Part shown: piece after piece, positions 38,456 through 60,286 of the stretch
Position numbering within the stretch: the stretch's first letter is position 1
Layout of the letters: each line of letters begins with the position of its first letter
Assembly: GCA_905182555.1 (NCBI GenBank)
Contig: CAJJBX010000005.1
Span: 1-64,000, forward strand
Direction: 5' to 3'
DNA length: 64,000 bases
Origin: an uncultured Ilumatobacter sp.
Lineage (GTDB): Bacteria > Actinomycetota > Acidimicrobiia > Acidimicrobiales > Ilumatobacteraceae
The notes under the pieces: model-generated
Database searches by the model: none
Told to the model about the DNA's origin: nothing
Seen by the model: the letters and a program-made list of their open reading frames with translations, nothing else
Program-made: the position numbers and the translations under genes

Positions 38456-38599
38456 CTACTTGTACCTGTACGTAATACGGCCTCGGGTGAGGTCGTAAGG
38501 GGTAAGTTCCACCTGCACTTTGTCACCAGGGAGAATACGGATGTAGTGCATCCGCATCTTCCCGGAGATGTGAGCCAACACTTCGTGATCGTTTGCAAG
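38456..38599 (-). pseudogene. infA: infA C-terminal part (translation initiation factor IF-1), N-terminus missing
   Basis: From [20 protein letters not shown] to [12 protein letters not shown] this is a perfect C-terminal two-thirds of IF-1, the OB-fold factor that blocks the ribosomal A site during initiation. Its first 25 or so residues are absent: upstream bases instead encode the start of topA in another frame, and a TGA closes the infA frame at the junction. The stop precedes rpmJ by 9 bp, exactly where infA belongs. IF-1 is essential, so either an intact copy exists elsewhere or this is a joined assembly. Confidence 0.75.
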
Positions 38600-38700
38600 T
38601 CACGCACATGCCCATATGATGCAAGTACAGTGTAATCTGATCCCAAGTATTTATTAATCGTTTTGGCTTTGGCAGGGGATTCAACGACTACGACGGGCAT
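38595..38700 (-). pseudogene. topA: topA N-terminal stub (DNA topoisomerase I)
   Basis: The first 34 residues, [20 protein letters not shown] through ASYGHVRDL, are the unmistakable TOPRIM start of bacterial topoisomerase I, including the catalytic Glu in VVESPAKA. A good ribosome-binding site (AAAGGAATTC) precedes the ATG. The reading then runs into infA bases in a different frame and ends at 38443. The two gene pieces share CTTGC at the junction, suggesting a microhomology joint. Confidence 0.75.
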
Positions 38701-38905
38701 AAAGAATTCCTTTCGACTAGGCGGGGAGCGCCTTGGCGCATGACCATGTGGGTCAGTTGGCGTTTTTGTCAATGCACCGAATATTGCAAAGGGGATGTGG
38801 CAGCAAATTTTGTTTGAAGGGTTGTAGAGCCCTTTGCTACACTGCGCAAGGGTTCGGTTCTGCGTGATGATTCTGGCCGATAATCCCGCCACAACCACCC
38901 GAGTC

Positions 38906-38948
38906 GCAATCCAAGCAATCCAAGCAATCCAAGCAATCCAAGCAATCG
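38906..38948. repeat. 9-bp tandem repeat, about 4.7 copies
   Basis: GCAATCCAA repeated four times from 38906 and then a partial GCAATCG. It lies between the TetR gene and the topA' stub, in the region that should contain the promoter of the downstream ribosomal genes. No gene is visible in 38701-38992. A possible minus-strand promoter, TTGCGC - 17 bases - TACAAC, is seen around 38825-38855. Confidence 0.8.
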
Positions 38949-38992
38949 TCATCCGAGTGACGGACCGACGCGCGTTTGTCGTCCGCTGCGGT

Positions 38993-39702: not shown

Positions 39703-41826
39703 TCAAACAGCCTGGTCAACCAAAATTGGCGCCAGCCACCGGTCGACGACCTCGCGGGCGCTGCGTGCTGTCAGGTGCGTGCCATCGGGGCGCCAGTCGA
39801 CATCTTCGGTGACTCCTGCGGCGTCAGCCCATCCGGCCAGGTCGACAACAGCCACCTTGGGCCCGAATTCGAGAGCAACCAGATCCAACGCTGCATGGAG
39901 AGCTTCCCATCGGTCGGCCGTAAACGTGACCCCGTCGCCGACGACACCAACGGAGCGCGGAGGCGCGATAATCGCAATGTTGGCGACACCGAGATCGAGG
40001 AGCTCAAGCACTGTTCGGCGATAGCTCGACGCGAGACGCGCTGCGTATCGGGGGTCGGTCGGCTCCAGCGGGCCCTCTGACACAGCCCATTGTCGATCAG
40101 CGACGTCGACCACGCTGACCATCAGCGCAACCACGTCAGGCTGCACCCGCGCGACCATTGACGGGAGGTCGACGTCGAACATTTCGATGCTTCGAACAGC
40201 AAACGATGAATCGTTCCAGCTCGTCACCTCCCCGCCCCGCAGTAAGCCGCAACCCTGGCACCACAGTAAATCGGACGTGGCGTAGGCACGGTGCTCGATG
40301 GACCATTCGGCCAACGCCTGGCCCACGTAGAACGCTGTGGAATCGCCAACCGTCAGTAACCGAACTGGCCGCGACAACGGCGGACCGAGCGGGATGTCGA
40401 GGACAATTGATTCGTTCGGGACCACCTGCACAACGTCACTACCAGGGGACCCACTCTCGGCTGTATCGGCGGAAACGGTTCCTTCGATCGAGCCCTGAAC
40501 CTCGGAATCCGCGACCTCGACCGTCGCAGTCGTCGACGTCACCAACGTCGACGTCACCAACTTCGACGTCACCAACGTCGACGTCACCAACTTCGGCAGC
40601 ACCGGCTCCAAGGGAGCCAGCGAACCAACGGGCTCAGCCGATGCCGACTCAAGAACTGCCGAGTCGGCTTCGAGAAACCCTCGTGAGAACGGGAGAACCG
40701 CAACGGTGAGGCCCGCAACGAGCATGGCGCCAGCGGCTCCACGAATCGTGCTCCGCACCGGCCAGGACGCTGACCGAACCGGCCGTTCGATCAACACAAA
40801 CGACACCGTCGCGATAACCAACGTCGCGCATATTGCAAGCATGAACTGCAATGGCTCTGTCAACGACCATCCATGCTGACGGAGCCACACAAAGACGGGC
40901 CAGTGGAAAAGATAGACGCCGTAGCTGATCTGGCCGAGTTGGACCAGGGGCCGACTCGACAACACTCGCCGGACCGGGCCCGCGACCTGAAGGCTCCACA
41001 ACATGACGGCTGAAACAGCGGCGAGCGGCGCGAGTACACCGGAATAAGCTGGCCCGGATCCCGTCGGCAGGCCGACGGCCAGCGCCACGAGGACGCACGC
41101 AACCGGAACTGCAACTATCCCCGCCCACGCTGGTACTGCCCAACGCTGAAGTACTCCGGCCACTGCGACACCGGCCAGCAGTTCGCCGGCGCGCATCGGC
41201 GTGGCCCAGTACGTCGCGTCATCGCTCAGCACCATCGCAGCAATCGGAGTCGCGATGGCAGCGCCAAGGAACAACAGCGGGAGGACGCTCGACCATTGCG
41301 TCACCCGGCGAGCAAGGAGGGCGACCGCGAGCGGCCACACCAGGTAAAACTGCTCTTCGATGGCGAGGGACCAATAGTGCTCGAGCGGCGAAACGAAAAC
41401 TGCCGCACCGGCAAAGCCATCGGTGTAGCTGGTGTCCCCGCCTACCTTCACCCAGTTAAAAACATGTGTCGTGGCACCGAGTAACTCGCTCCGCAACCCG
41501 GCCACCTGGTCGAACTGCCCCGCAAGGCGCGCAACGCTGACCAATGCCAGACACGCCAGGCTGGCCGGCAACAGCCGCTTCGCGCGTCGGGCAATGAATG
41601 ATCCGAGCGCGATGCTCCCCGTCTGCCTGCGCTCGTCGATCAGGAGTGTCGTGATCAGAAACCCTGAGAGCGTGAAAAAAATTGAAACACCGAAGTAGCC
41701 CCCGCCCATCCAACCAAAGCCGGCGTGGAAACACAGGACCATCGCGACGGCGACGGCGCGAAGTCCGTCGAGGGCTGGCTGATAACCGAGTTCCCCCGCA
41801 CGCGAGGGCTGAAGCGATTCACCCAT
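39703..41826 (-). CDS. Membrane acyltransferase family 3 with C-terminal SGNH domain (OafA-like)
   Basis: 707 residues. The N-terminal acyltransferase-3 domain has about ten helices (ALDGLRAVAVAMVLCFHAGF, YFGVSIFFTLSGFLITTLL with the conserved His and Arg region, HYWSLAIEEQFYLVWPL). A linker of LVTS repeats follows, and then an extracytoplasmic SGNH domain: VGDSTAFYVGQ with the nucleophile Ser and WRPDGTHLTAR with the Asp-His pair. Proteins of this kind O-acetylate surface polysaccharide or peptidoglycan. ATG at 41826 starts directly before the acyltransferase domain; the longer frame covers the DCC gene. Confidence 0.92.
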   Translation of the reverse strand: MGESLQPSRAGELGYQPALDGLRAVAVAMVLCFHAGFGWMGGGYFGVSIFFTLSGFLITTLLIDERRQTGSIALGSFIARRAKRLLPASLACLALVSVARLAGQFDQVAGLRSELLGATTHVFNWVKVGGDTSYTDGFAGAAVFVSPLEHYWSLAIEEQFYLVWPLAVALLARRVTQWSSVLPLLFLGAAIATPIAAMVLSDDATYWATPMRAGELLAGVAVAGVLQRWAVPAWAGIVAVPVACVLVALAVGLPTGSGPAYSGVLAPLAAVSAVMLWSLQVAGPVRRVLSSRPLVQLGQISYGVYLFHWPVFVWLRQHGWSLTEPLQFMLAICATLVIATVSFVLIERPVRSASWPVRSTIRGAAGAMLVAGLTVAVLPFSRGFLEADSAVLESASAEPVGSLAPLEPVLPKLVTSTLVTSKLVTSTLVTSTTATVEVADSEVQGSIEGTVSADTAESGSPGSDVVQVVPNESIVLDIPLGPPLSRPVRLLTVGDSTAFYVGQALAEWSIEHRAYATSDLLWCQGCGLLRGGEVTSWNDSSFAVRSIEMFDVDLPSMVARVQPDVVALMVSVVDVADRQWAVSEGPLEPTDPRYAARLASSYRRTVLELLDLGVANIAIIAPPRSVGVVGDGVTFTADRWEALHAALDLVALEFGPKVAVVDLAGWADAAGVTEDVDWRPDGTHLTARSAREVVDRWLAPILVDQAV
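40532..40591. repeat. 15-bp tandem repeat, 4 copies, in the acyltransferase gene
   Basis: Unit GTCGACGTCACCAAC (with TTCGAC in one copy) repeated four times; on the coding strand it encodes (L/K/T)VTST repeats in the linker between the membrane and SGNH domains. Copy number could vary between strains and set the linker length. Confidence 0.85.
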
Positions 41827-41867
41827 TCTCAGAAGTGTGTCACTTTGATCCCGATACAAGGATGATC

Positions 41868-42302
41868 TCAGCCCGAGATTGGCGTGCAGCCTCCGGCGTG
41901 CTCGAGGCACCATGGCCTCTCTCCGGGAAGCCGATGTCGATTCGCTGCGACCAGCGCATAGGCATGGTCGAGGAGCCAAGGCGCCCCAGGGACCTTCCAT
42001 GGCCAGACGGGCCACCGAGCCTGACGGCCAACGGCCAGAGCGAGACCGATTGCTCGGGCCCCACCGACCTTGACCCCGCCCTCGGCGACTGTCCAGGCTG
42101 CGACCTCGGCTTGCTCTTCGCTCACCCAAGTCGACTGGTGTTGCCCCGTTGCCTGAGAGGCAACGATGTGGAGCCGGTCGTGCTTGTCGAGGCGCCGCAT
42201 CCAGCGAGCGCTACGTGTGCAAAAACCTCAATACCCGTCGAAGATGAGCGTGGCGCGCTCGGGTCGCCGATCAGGAAGCTGACCAAATTCGATGGCGCGC
42301 AC
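41868..42302 (-). CDS. DCC-family (DUF393) thiol-disulfide oxidoreductase with in-frame TGA at the first active-site Cys: candidate selenoprotein
   Basis: Reading through one TGA at 42228-42230 gives a complete DCC-family protein of about 144 residues. The active site reads TLIFDGY-[TGA]-GFCTRSARW, where the family has DGxCGFCT. The rest matches well: RLDKHDRLHIVASQA, AAWTVAEGGVKVGGARAI and the end VAANRHRLPGERPWC. The TGA therefore replaces exactly the first Cys of CxxC, giving UxxC if read as selenocysteine. A hairpin with a bulged T follows 16 bases after the TGA. The start is uncertain; GTG at 42302 is my choice, 22 bp after adk. The alternative is a point error or a dead gene. DCC proteins are thought to be thioredoxin-like redox enzymes. 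Confidence 0.6.
42192..42211 (-). promoter_or_regulatory. Candidate bacterial SECIS hairpin
   Basis: On the minus strand, downstream of the TGA: GCGC, a single unpaired T (42207), CGC, loop TGGAT, then GCG and GCGC, giving seven pairs. Known bacterial SECIS elements lie just 3' of the UGA with a short stem, a bulged U and a G at the start of the apical loop. Here the second loop base is G and the bulge-to-loop-G distance (6) equals that of E. coli fdhF. The loop begins 24 bases after the TGA, a few bases further than in fdhF. High GC makes chance hairpins common. Confidence 0.45.
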
Positions 42303-42324: not shown

Positions 42325-42990
42325 CTAAACCCGATTGGATTCAACGGCCTTCACCATGCGGGCGAAGACTGCGTCGGGATGGCCGACACCGTTGATGACA
42401 ACGAGCCGGTTCTGATCGCTGAAATGCTTCACAAGCGGGAAGGTCTGCTCTTCGTACAAGTCGAGTCGACGGTTCACCGAGTCTTCAGTGTCATCGTCAC
42501 GCTGCAACACATCGCCTCCGCACACATCACAGATCCACGGGCTCGGATCGTTGCCAGTTGCCGTGTAGTTGGTGCCACAGTCTCGGCAGACTCGACGCGA
42601 CGAAATGCGCTCAAGGACAATCTCACGAGGCACGTTGAGGTCGAGGACCACGTCGATCGGGCGACGCTGTTCGGCAGCGATCTCATCGAGCTGCAGTGCC
42701 TGCTCCAAGGTGCGGGGGAACCCATCGAGGATGTAACCACGAGAGCTCGTGTCGGCGGCTCCGAGACGCTCGCGCACGATACCGATCATGATGTCGTCGC
42801 CAACAAGCCCACCAGCGTCCATGACCTCCTTGGCCATGAGGCCAAGTTCGGTCTCTTCGCGAACTGCTGCACGCAGCATGTCCCCGGTCGAGATGTGCGG
42901 AACGACGAAGTGGCGCGACAAGCGAACACACTGTGTTCCCTTACCGGCTCCCTGTCGGCCGAGAATGATGAGGCGAGCGCCCGGAATCAT
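42325..42990 (-). CDS. adk: Adenylate kinase (zinc-binding LID)
   Basis: 221 residues. Balances ATP, ADP and AMP. The P-loop is LGRQGAGKGTQ, the AMP site includes STGDMLRAAV and GFPRTLEQA, and the LID carries two Cys pairs, CRDC and CDVC, which form a zinc site as in Gram-positive enzymes. It starts 10 bp after secY, the normal spc-cluster order. The map gene that usually follows is absent here. Confidence 0.97.
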   Translation of the reverse strand: MIPGARLIILGRQGAGKGTQCVRLSRHFVVPHISTGDMLRAAVREETELGLMAKEVMDAGGLVGDDIMIGIVRERLGAADTSSRGYILDGFPRTLEQALQLDEIAAEQRRPIDVVLDLNVPREIVLERISSRRVCRDCGTNYTATGNDPSPWICDVCGGDVLQRDDDTEDSVNRRLDLYEEQTFPLVKHFSDQNRLVVINGVGHPDAVFARMVKAVESNRV

Positions 42991-59095: not shown

Positions 59096-60286
59096 TCAGC
59101 TCACTTCAAGGATCTTGGTGACGCGGCCGGCACCAACAGTGCGGCCACCTTCACGGATGGCGAAGCGAAGACCTTCGTCCATAGCAATCGGCTTACCGAG
59201 CTGGACCGTCATCTCGACATTGTCACCAGGCATCACCATCTCGGTGCCATCAGGCAACTCGATCGTGCCCGTGACATCAGTCGTACGGAAGAAGAACTGC
59301 GGACGGTAATTGTTGAAGAACGGCTTATGACGGCCACCCTCATTCTTGGTCAACACATACACCTGACCCTCGAAATCGGTATGCGGCGTGATCGAACCGG
59401 GCTTACACAGCACCTGACCACGCTCAACATCATCCTTACCAGTACCACGCAACAGCGCACCAATGTTGTCGCCAGCCTGGCCCTCATCGAGGAGCTTGCG
59501 GAACATTTCCACACCCGTACACGTCGTCTTCTGCGTATCACGCAGACCAACAATCTCGATCTCATCGCCAGTGTTGACAATGCCCTGCTCAACCTTGCCA
59601 GTCACAACCGTGCCACGACCAGTGATCGTAAACACGTCTTCAATCGGCATCAGGAACGGCTTATCCAACTCACGGACCGGCTGCGGAATCGACTCATCAC
59701 AAGCAGCCATGAGTTCCATGACCTTTTCCTGCGCAGCAGCATCACCCTCAAGAGCCTTCAGCGCCGACACATGCACGACCGGAGCATCATCGCCCGGGAA
59801 CTCGTACTCAGTCAACAACTCACGAACTTCCATCTCAACGAGCTCCAAAAGCTCCTCGTCATCAACCATGTCAGACTTATTGAGAGCCACCACGATGTAC
59901 GGCACGCCAACCTGGCGAGCCAACAACACGTGCTCACGCGTCTGAGGCATTGGACCATCCGTTGCAGCCACAACCAGGATTGCTCCGTCGATCTGGGCTG
60001 CACCCGTGATCATGTTCTTGATGTAGTCAGCGTGACCCGGCATATCAATATGCGCGTAATGACGATTCTCGGTCGTGTACTCGATATGACTAATCGAGAT
60101 CGTGATACCACGAGCCTTCTCCTCAGGCGCCTTATCAATGCCATCAAAGTCAGTAAACTCAGCCAACCCACGATCCGACAGGGTCTTGGAGATGGCGGCA
60201 GTCAGGGTCGTCTTGCCATGGTCAATATGACCCATGGTGCCGATGTTCACGTGCGGCTTATTCCGCTCAAACTTCACTTTGCTCAT
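59096..60286 (-). CDS. tuf: Elongation factor Tu
   Basis: 396 residues, GTPase that brings aminoacyl-tRNA to the ribosome. [10 protein letters not shown] is the P-loop, [13 protein letters not shown] the switch II region (Met replaces the usual Cys before Pro), ALNKSDMV the guanine-binding NKxD box. The C-terminus [13 protein letters not shown] is intact. It follows fusA by 86 bp. Confidence 0.98.

Follow-up and report, generated by a model that had tools for sequence, protein, structure and literature searches.

The minus strand of the window, by which we mean the whole stretch of 64,000 nucleotides analysed here from an uncultured Ilumatobacter sp., carries directly downstream of adk a small gene of the DCC thiol-disulfide oxidoreductase family. 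The assembly to which the window belongs is a draft of 2.56 Mb in 26 contigs that is 72.7% complete. The following features were delineated in and around the gene:

42325-42990, minus strand: adk, directly upstream of the DCC gene
41868-42302, minus strand: putative selenoprotein gene of the DCC/PF04134 family, with a GTG start and an internal TGA as candidate Sec25, 144 residues
42228-42230, minus strand: TGA codon, candidate selenocysteine (U of UGFC); TGA in six other genomes and TGC in four at the same column
42219-42221, minus strand: TGC encoding Cys28, second residue of UxxC and presumed resolving Cys; invariant in 9/9 aligned proteins
41886-41909, minus strand: C-terminal stretch with Cys132 (41907-41909) and Cys139 (41886-41888), both invariant in 9/9
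41868-41870, minus strand: natural stop codon of the DCC gene, TGA

On re-reading 41868-42302 we found that the minus strand runs GTG...TTCGACGGGTAT-TGA-GGTTTTTGC..., in agreement with the original prediction, which had read DGY-TGA-GFCTRSARW at this place. As it had also claimed, the TGA at 42228-42230 is the sole internal stop in the frame and falls at the first Cys of the CxxC pair in DGxCGFC; when it is read as U, the product is a protein of 144 residues with the motif FDGYUGFCTRSARW. With C substituted for U, this product matches the PF04134 (DCC1-like) model at 62.3 bits, above the cut-off of 27.8, over model positions 1-112 of 113, that is, nearly the full model. The DGxCxxC motif is present as FDGY-U-GFC, with C for U in four close relatives, and all seven Sec forms described below score above the PF04134 cut-off. 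We take this family to be the one also named DUF393 or YuxK-like. A search of PDB sequences returned four weak matches, three of them glutaredoxins (best E-value 0.53) and one unrelated, and an AlphaFold prediction (window protein and that of locus L051, alignment A2) reached a pLDDT of 35.9, too low for a fold search. A scan of IMG/VR found no relative of the gene.

A recurrent TGA at one column of a DCC clade

Of the 10 genomes searched in the genus, 6 have a match to the DCC protein, as do 119 of 221 in the family. Eight of the family matches form a close subfamily at E-values of 1.2e-37 or better, the next match lying at 4.2e-15. This subfamily divides evenly at the column of interest: the window and three genomes of the same genus (G153, G150 and G152) have TGA, and four others (G134, G149, G266 and G264) have TGC. 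G153 corresponds to contig CALAHA010000290.1 (11870 bases) of an uncultured Ilumatobacter metagenome-assembled genome, whose protein is 73% identical to that of the window and which we count once; in G150 the Sec motif reads URFC.

We also searched 397 sampled genomes of the order and 396 of the phylum with a DNA pattern, [FY]DGxUxFC, in which the codon after the TGA must have G or C as its second base; because of this requirement the pattern can miss Sec-DCC genes. In the order it occurred in four genomes, namely the window's, G546 from another family (FDGYUGFCTRSASW) and two where the match is not a DCC gene; in the phylum it likewise occurred in four, namely the window's, G934 and G891 of a single genus in another class (both FDGAUGFCTRSARW), and one where the match is not DCC. 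The same pattern read backwards, used as a control, gave none among the matches that we listed for the order and the phylum. With TGA shared at one column by seven genomes from three families, and none for the control among the matches listed, the recurrence exceeds what chance would yield. The proposed comparison of TGA with TGC or TGT among homologues resolves into six other genomes with TGA and four with TGC.

The pattern matches L132, L134 and L140 were rejected, as they do not read as DCC genes. We likewise set aside further DCC matches with a TGA (in G124, G102, G093, G351, G195 and G343), where it falls at the C-terminal end or close to it, outside the active site; of the DCC matches flagged for TAG or TAA, those of G077, G025 and G290 were read. 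At L144 (G163:C87:9700-10400), which belongs to an ordinary DCC group, a TGA (TTPUVL...) stands where relatives have a C-terminal Cys, and is probably a stop codon, less probably a codon for Sec.

The genomic setting of the gene is partly conserved, adk lying beside it in 7 of the 11 loci examined; the exceptions are G266, with a contig of 3041 bases, G546, G934 and G891. The gene of G546 is the sole match at an E-value of 1e-12 or better among 39 genomes of its family, and might have been acquired by transfer or sit on a misbinned contig. The loci of G891 and G934 are 86.6% identical over 2971 bases, and upstream of the latter lies what we presume to be an isocitrate-lyase-like gene.

A tree built from 74 DCC proteins, a set that leaves out many of the family matches, unites the seven Sec forms and the four Cys forms in one clade with support of 100/95. 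The branching order inside the clade is largely weak, and the tree implies five changes between Sec and Cys (4-5 in bootstrap replicates), while a single change could still be accommodated by the well-supported branches. An alignment of nine members, five Sec and four Cys forms, has 21 invariant columns, including F21, D22, G23, the Sec/Cys25 column, C28, T29, R30, Cys132 and Cys139; seven of the 21 lie in F21-R30. For the window gene and that of G153, dN/dS falls from 0.39 upstream of the TGA to 0.21 downstream (0.23 with a slightly longer stretch); for the pair G934 and G891, the downstream value is 0.38. Given these values of 0.21-0.38, the part downstream of the TGA is under selection as protein.

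These observations bear on two readings that dispense with selenocysteine. The first regards the TGA as a nonsense mutation in an ordinary Cys-type DCC gene, or the gene as a decaying pseudogene. In its favour, the DCC relatives among the matches listed have Cys at this position, apart from the seven Sec forms, and four of ten genus genomes have no match at an E-value of 1e-5 or better. However, decay would hardly strike one and the same column with a TGA in seven genomes, which belong to three families, and spare the frame thereafter, and it is at odds with the low dN/dS downstream of the TGA; we therefore deem it very improbable. Further stops and relaxed selection in homologues had been named as signs against the original prediction, and what we see is that all 10 other members of the clade are free of internal stops after this column and that dN/dS in the two pairs compared is well below 1.

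The second reading has translation begin after the TGA, at the ATG of 42198-42200, and indeed an open reading frame from that codon exists (41868-42200), encoding a protein of 110 residues that would have no active-site motif. Yet the segment F21-R30, which precedes this ATG, holds a third of the invariant columns, the region before the TGA itself has a dN/dS of only 0.39, and the Met in question is replaced by Ile, Leu or Val in G150, G152, G546, G934 and G891. A start at this point accordingly has very little to recommend it.

Selenocysteine machinery in the genome and its family

All four genes of the selenocysteine pathway that the original prediction had proposed to look for are present in the window's genome, among them selB and selC, whose absence would have spoken against it. 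A single tRNA-Sec (selC) lies at C11:39643-39734 and scores 64.2 bits against an Rfam cut-off of 47; ARAGORN calls the same gene as tRNA-SeC with anticodon tca. On the same contig selB (C11:77795-78859; 278 bits, cut-off 242.25) adjoins selA (C11:78880-80031; 411 bits, cut-off 267.9), and selD is found at C1:68369-69286 (360.9 bits, cut-off 125). The selD gene has one in-frame TGA of its own, at HGAGUGCK, which we take to be the usual Sec position of SelD. Two equal elongation-factor matches to the SelB model (196.6 bits each), at 59390-60250 of the window and at C5:80836-81696 of its own contig, are probably two copies of tuf.

Across the window's family selA is found above cut-off in 153 of 221 genomes, and hence decoding of Sec is common in this lineage. 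We looked for selA, selB, selC and selD in the window's genome and for selA and tRNA-Sec in the seven other carriers of the same family; selA and tRNA-Sec were found together in all eight genomes with the close DCC subfamily. The tRNA-Sec gene is present in 11 of the 12 genomes examined, and the exception, G151, also has no match to the DCC gene.

The presence of this machinery weighs against the notion that a near-cognate or suppressor tRNA decodes the TGA, giving some residue other than Sec, such as Trp. Stop codons can be leaky in general, but the DCC gene itself ends on TGA, and the four close relatives that have no TGA at the column have Cys there; readthrough of this kind consequently strikes us as scarcely credible. 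A single-base error of sequencing or assembly, which the draft state of the assembly and a suspicious join near 38590 in the window might suggest, is the least probable account of all, for the TGA recurs in CALAHA010000290.1 and five further independent assemblies.

A candidate SECIS hairpin downstream of the TGA

42192-42211, minus strand: putative bacterial SECIS hairpin with 7 bp, a bulged U and a UGGAU loop, 24 nt from UGA to loop
42188-42215, minus strand: the same hairpin extended by two outer pairs, -13.5 kcal/mol

The hairpin with seven pairs, a bulged T and a G in its five-base loop, to which the original prediction had drawn attention, is indeed there and folds at -10.9 kcal/mol. It comprises bases 17-36 after the TGA (42211-42192), GCGC-U-CGC-UGGAU-GCG-GCGC, with G at the second and third positions of the loop. 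The SECIS element of Escherichia coli fdhF has a bulged U below an upper stem of 3 bp and a small loop with GG. The window hairpin has the bulged U, the 3-bp upper stem and the GG of the loop in common with it, whereas the other letters of the loop differ, and in relatives of the window gene the bulge sits in the 3' strand of the stem or is a C. A published model of the bacterial element (bSECIS) specifies a loop of 3-9 nt with G at its first or second position, a stem of 4-16 bp, 16-37 nt from UGA to loop and a minimum free energy of -7.5 kcal/mol or lower (PMC13188914). The window hairpin agrees with it on all four counts (UGGAU, 7 bp, 24 nt and -10.9 kcal/mol).

The other Sec forms have hairpins of several kinds. 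G153 keeps six of the seven pairs of the window hairpin, with the bulge shifted by one base and one pair broken, and G150 has all seven, with C24-G30 replaced by U24-A30 and a bulged C. G152 and G546 share a different hairpin, with 6/6 pairs, a U bulge on the 3' side and the loops AGGU and AGUU, in which G18-C30 of the former corresponds to C18-G30 of the latter. For G150 and G152 the hairpins so described differ from the lowest-energy ones of our scan. As positions 18, 24 and 30 are third codon positions, these changes are synonymous, and the two compensatory ones are suggestive of a conserved hairpin, if short of proof. Long hairpins of -24.4 and -21.2 kcal/mol are predicted in G934 and G891. 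The shortest forms in G153, G152 and G546 (-7.4, -6.4 and -6.4 kcal/mol) miss the energy limit of the model, but longer forms with the same loop pass it (-9.2, -9.2 and -10.1 kcal/mol).

We compared each gene with 250 synonymous shuffles that kept the protein sequence and codon usage fixed, judging either the fixed segment 12-45 or the bSECIS score. In the fixed segment, the number of shuffles as stable or more so was 9 for the window gene, 95 for G153, 70 for G150, 75 for G152, 119 for G546, 0 for G934 and 1 for G891; by bSECIS score the corresponding numbers were 40, 145, 116, 70, 85, 0 and 7. The Cys forms G134, G149, G266 and G264 gave 7, 189, 82 and 124 in the fixed segment and 40, 229, 13 and 231 by bSECIS score, and so can look equally unusual (G134 by the former measure, G266 by the latter). 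The hairpins of G934 and G891 exceed their shuffles in stability by far; that of the window is only mildly unusual in this respect and constitutes weak evidence. Hairpin energy was rejected as the main proof, since synonymous shuffles so often match it; what carries the case is the TGA column, together with the machinery and selection.

Conservation of synonymous codons between the window gene and G153 does not differ significantly between the hairpin (4/6) and the rest of the gene (50/84; Fisher p 0.54); for G934 against G891 the figures are 9/10 and 68/84. Rfam found no SECIS match in the window or in eight loci, and since these include the genome's own selD locus, that scan is uninformative. 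The Cys form of G149 (L067) keeps six of the seven pairs and the UGGAU loop of the window hairpin, and its predicted fold uses another register; this resemblance may be a trace of a recent change from Sec to Cys, or could also be explained by the shared protein sequence.

We lean, with some reserve, towards the view that this DCC subfamily, whose members come from at least two classes of the phylum, is as a whole a selenoprotein family or goes back to one. Sec would then have been repeatedly swapped for Cys, and the orthologues would have rebuilt the SECIS hairpin in different forms (5'-bulge, 3'-bulge and long stem) while the protein sequence stayed almost unchanged.

A predicted DCC-family selenoprotein and its context

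We propose, with a probability of about 93%, that the product of the gene is a selenoprotein within the DCC thiol-disulfide oxidoreductase family, with Sec as the leading residue of its active-site UxxC. The original prediction of such a protein is upheld by the Sec machinery, the recurrent TGA column and the constraint after it; decoding of the TGA as Sec is on these grounds very likely. When the ribosome reaches the UGA, the hairpin just downstream would, as a bSECIS, be bound by SelB carrying Sec-tRNA-Sec, so that Sec is put at the first position of UxxC and translation continues as far as the natural stop. Judging by the motif and by what the family is called, and by analogy with other UxxC proteins, we infer that the selenolate of Sec25 would attack a disulfide or another oxidised group, with Cys28 resolving the resulting selenenyl-sulfide. 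The enzyme would be regenerated by an electron donor or by a second pair of Cys, a role that Cys132 and Cys139 could possibly play.

The protein shares with the DCC1-like PF04134 family the FDGxCGFC motif and a C-terminal RHRLPG region. It differs in having Sec for the first Cys of CxxC and in belonging to a distinct clade, in which the nine aligned members have PWC...C near the C-terminus and G934 and G891 have PYC. With the bacterial UxxC selenoproteins (thioredoxin, glutaredoxin, DsbA-like and Prx-like; PMC13188914) it has in common UxxC, the existence of Cys homologues, a downstream hairpin and the Sec machinery. Unlike them, it falls outside the catalogue: Table 1 of that 2026 review is stated to cover 119 selenoprotein families or subfamilies, and none of its entries is PF04134, in keeping with the original prediction, to which a selenoprotein of this family was new. 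Neither the catalogue nor the text of the review has PF04134, DUF393, DCC or YuxK, and DCC is not among the families in the family table and other passages of the Sargasso Sea paper (PMC1088965) or in passages of a 2022 review (PMC9312934). The hypothetical GOS_A carries no domain identifier in the table of PMC9312934 and might still correspond to this family. NCBIfam release 20.0 has no model matching P0001 or P0002 at an E-value of 1 or better, and hence the NF-numbered catalogue families present in that release are not the DCC gene.

The open-access literature yielded no work linking a selenoprotein with DUF393 or COG3011, or selenocysteine with DCC thiol-disulfide oxidoreductases; selenocysteine and Ilumatobacter co-occur there only in a soil metaproteomics work, and the works that have both selenoprotein and Acidimicrobi- are, by their titles, on other topics. 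Where the family does appear, YuxK is listed as a predicted thiol-disulfide oxidoreductase (PMC4602095, a 2015 eLife table) and a DUF393 gene is mentioned on a transcript in a heliorhodopsin study (PMC8612252); neither of these passages contains a functional test. A DCC selenoprotein is thus absent from the catalogues searched, and both Sec and Cys forms occur within the window's phylum.

With the proposed selenoprotein, one more redox family would join the users of the 21st amino acid, and a way would open to the function of the DCC family, which has been little studied. A gene finder for which every TGA is a stop would truncate this gene or miss it altogether. Natural orthologues with Sec and with Cys, found at the same adk-linked site, lend themselves to a direct test of why Sec is retained or lost.

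Two further features of the neighbourhood deserve mention. At 38590-38960 on the minus strand, the 5' end of a frame that we take to be topA-like runs straight into the apparent C-terminal part of what is presumably infA, with a short GATTGCTTG tandem repeat upstream; this may be a join made during assembly or an insertion of foreign DNA. The DCC gene itself is followed by an acyltransferase-like gene (minus-strand frame 39703-42129) with a run of LVTST repeats at about 40550-40650, which may lie in a linker.
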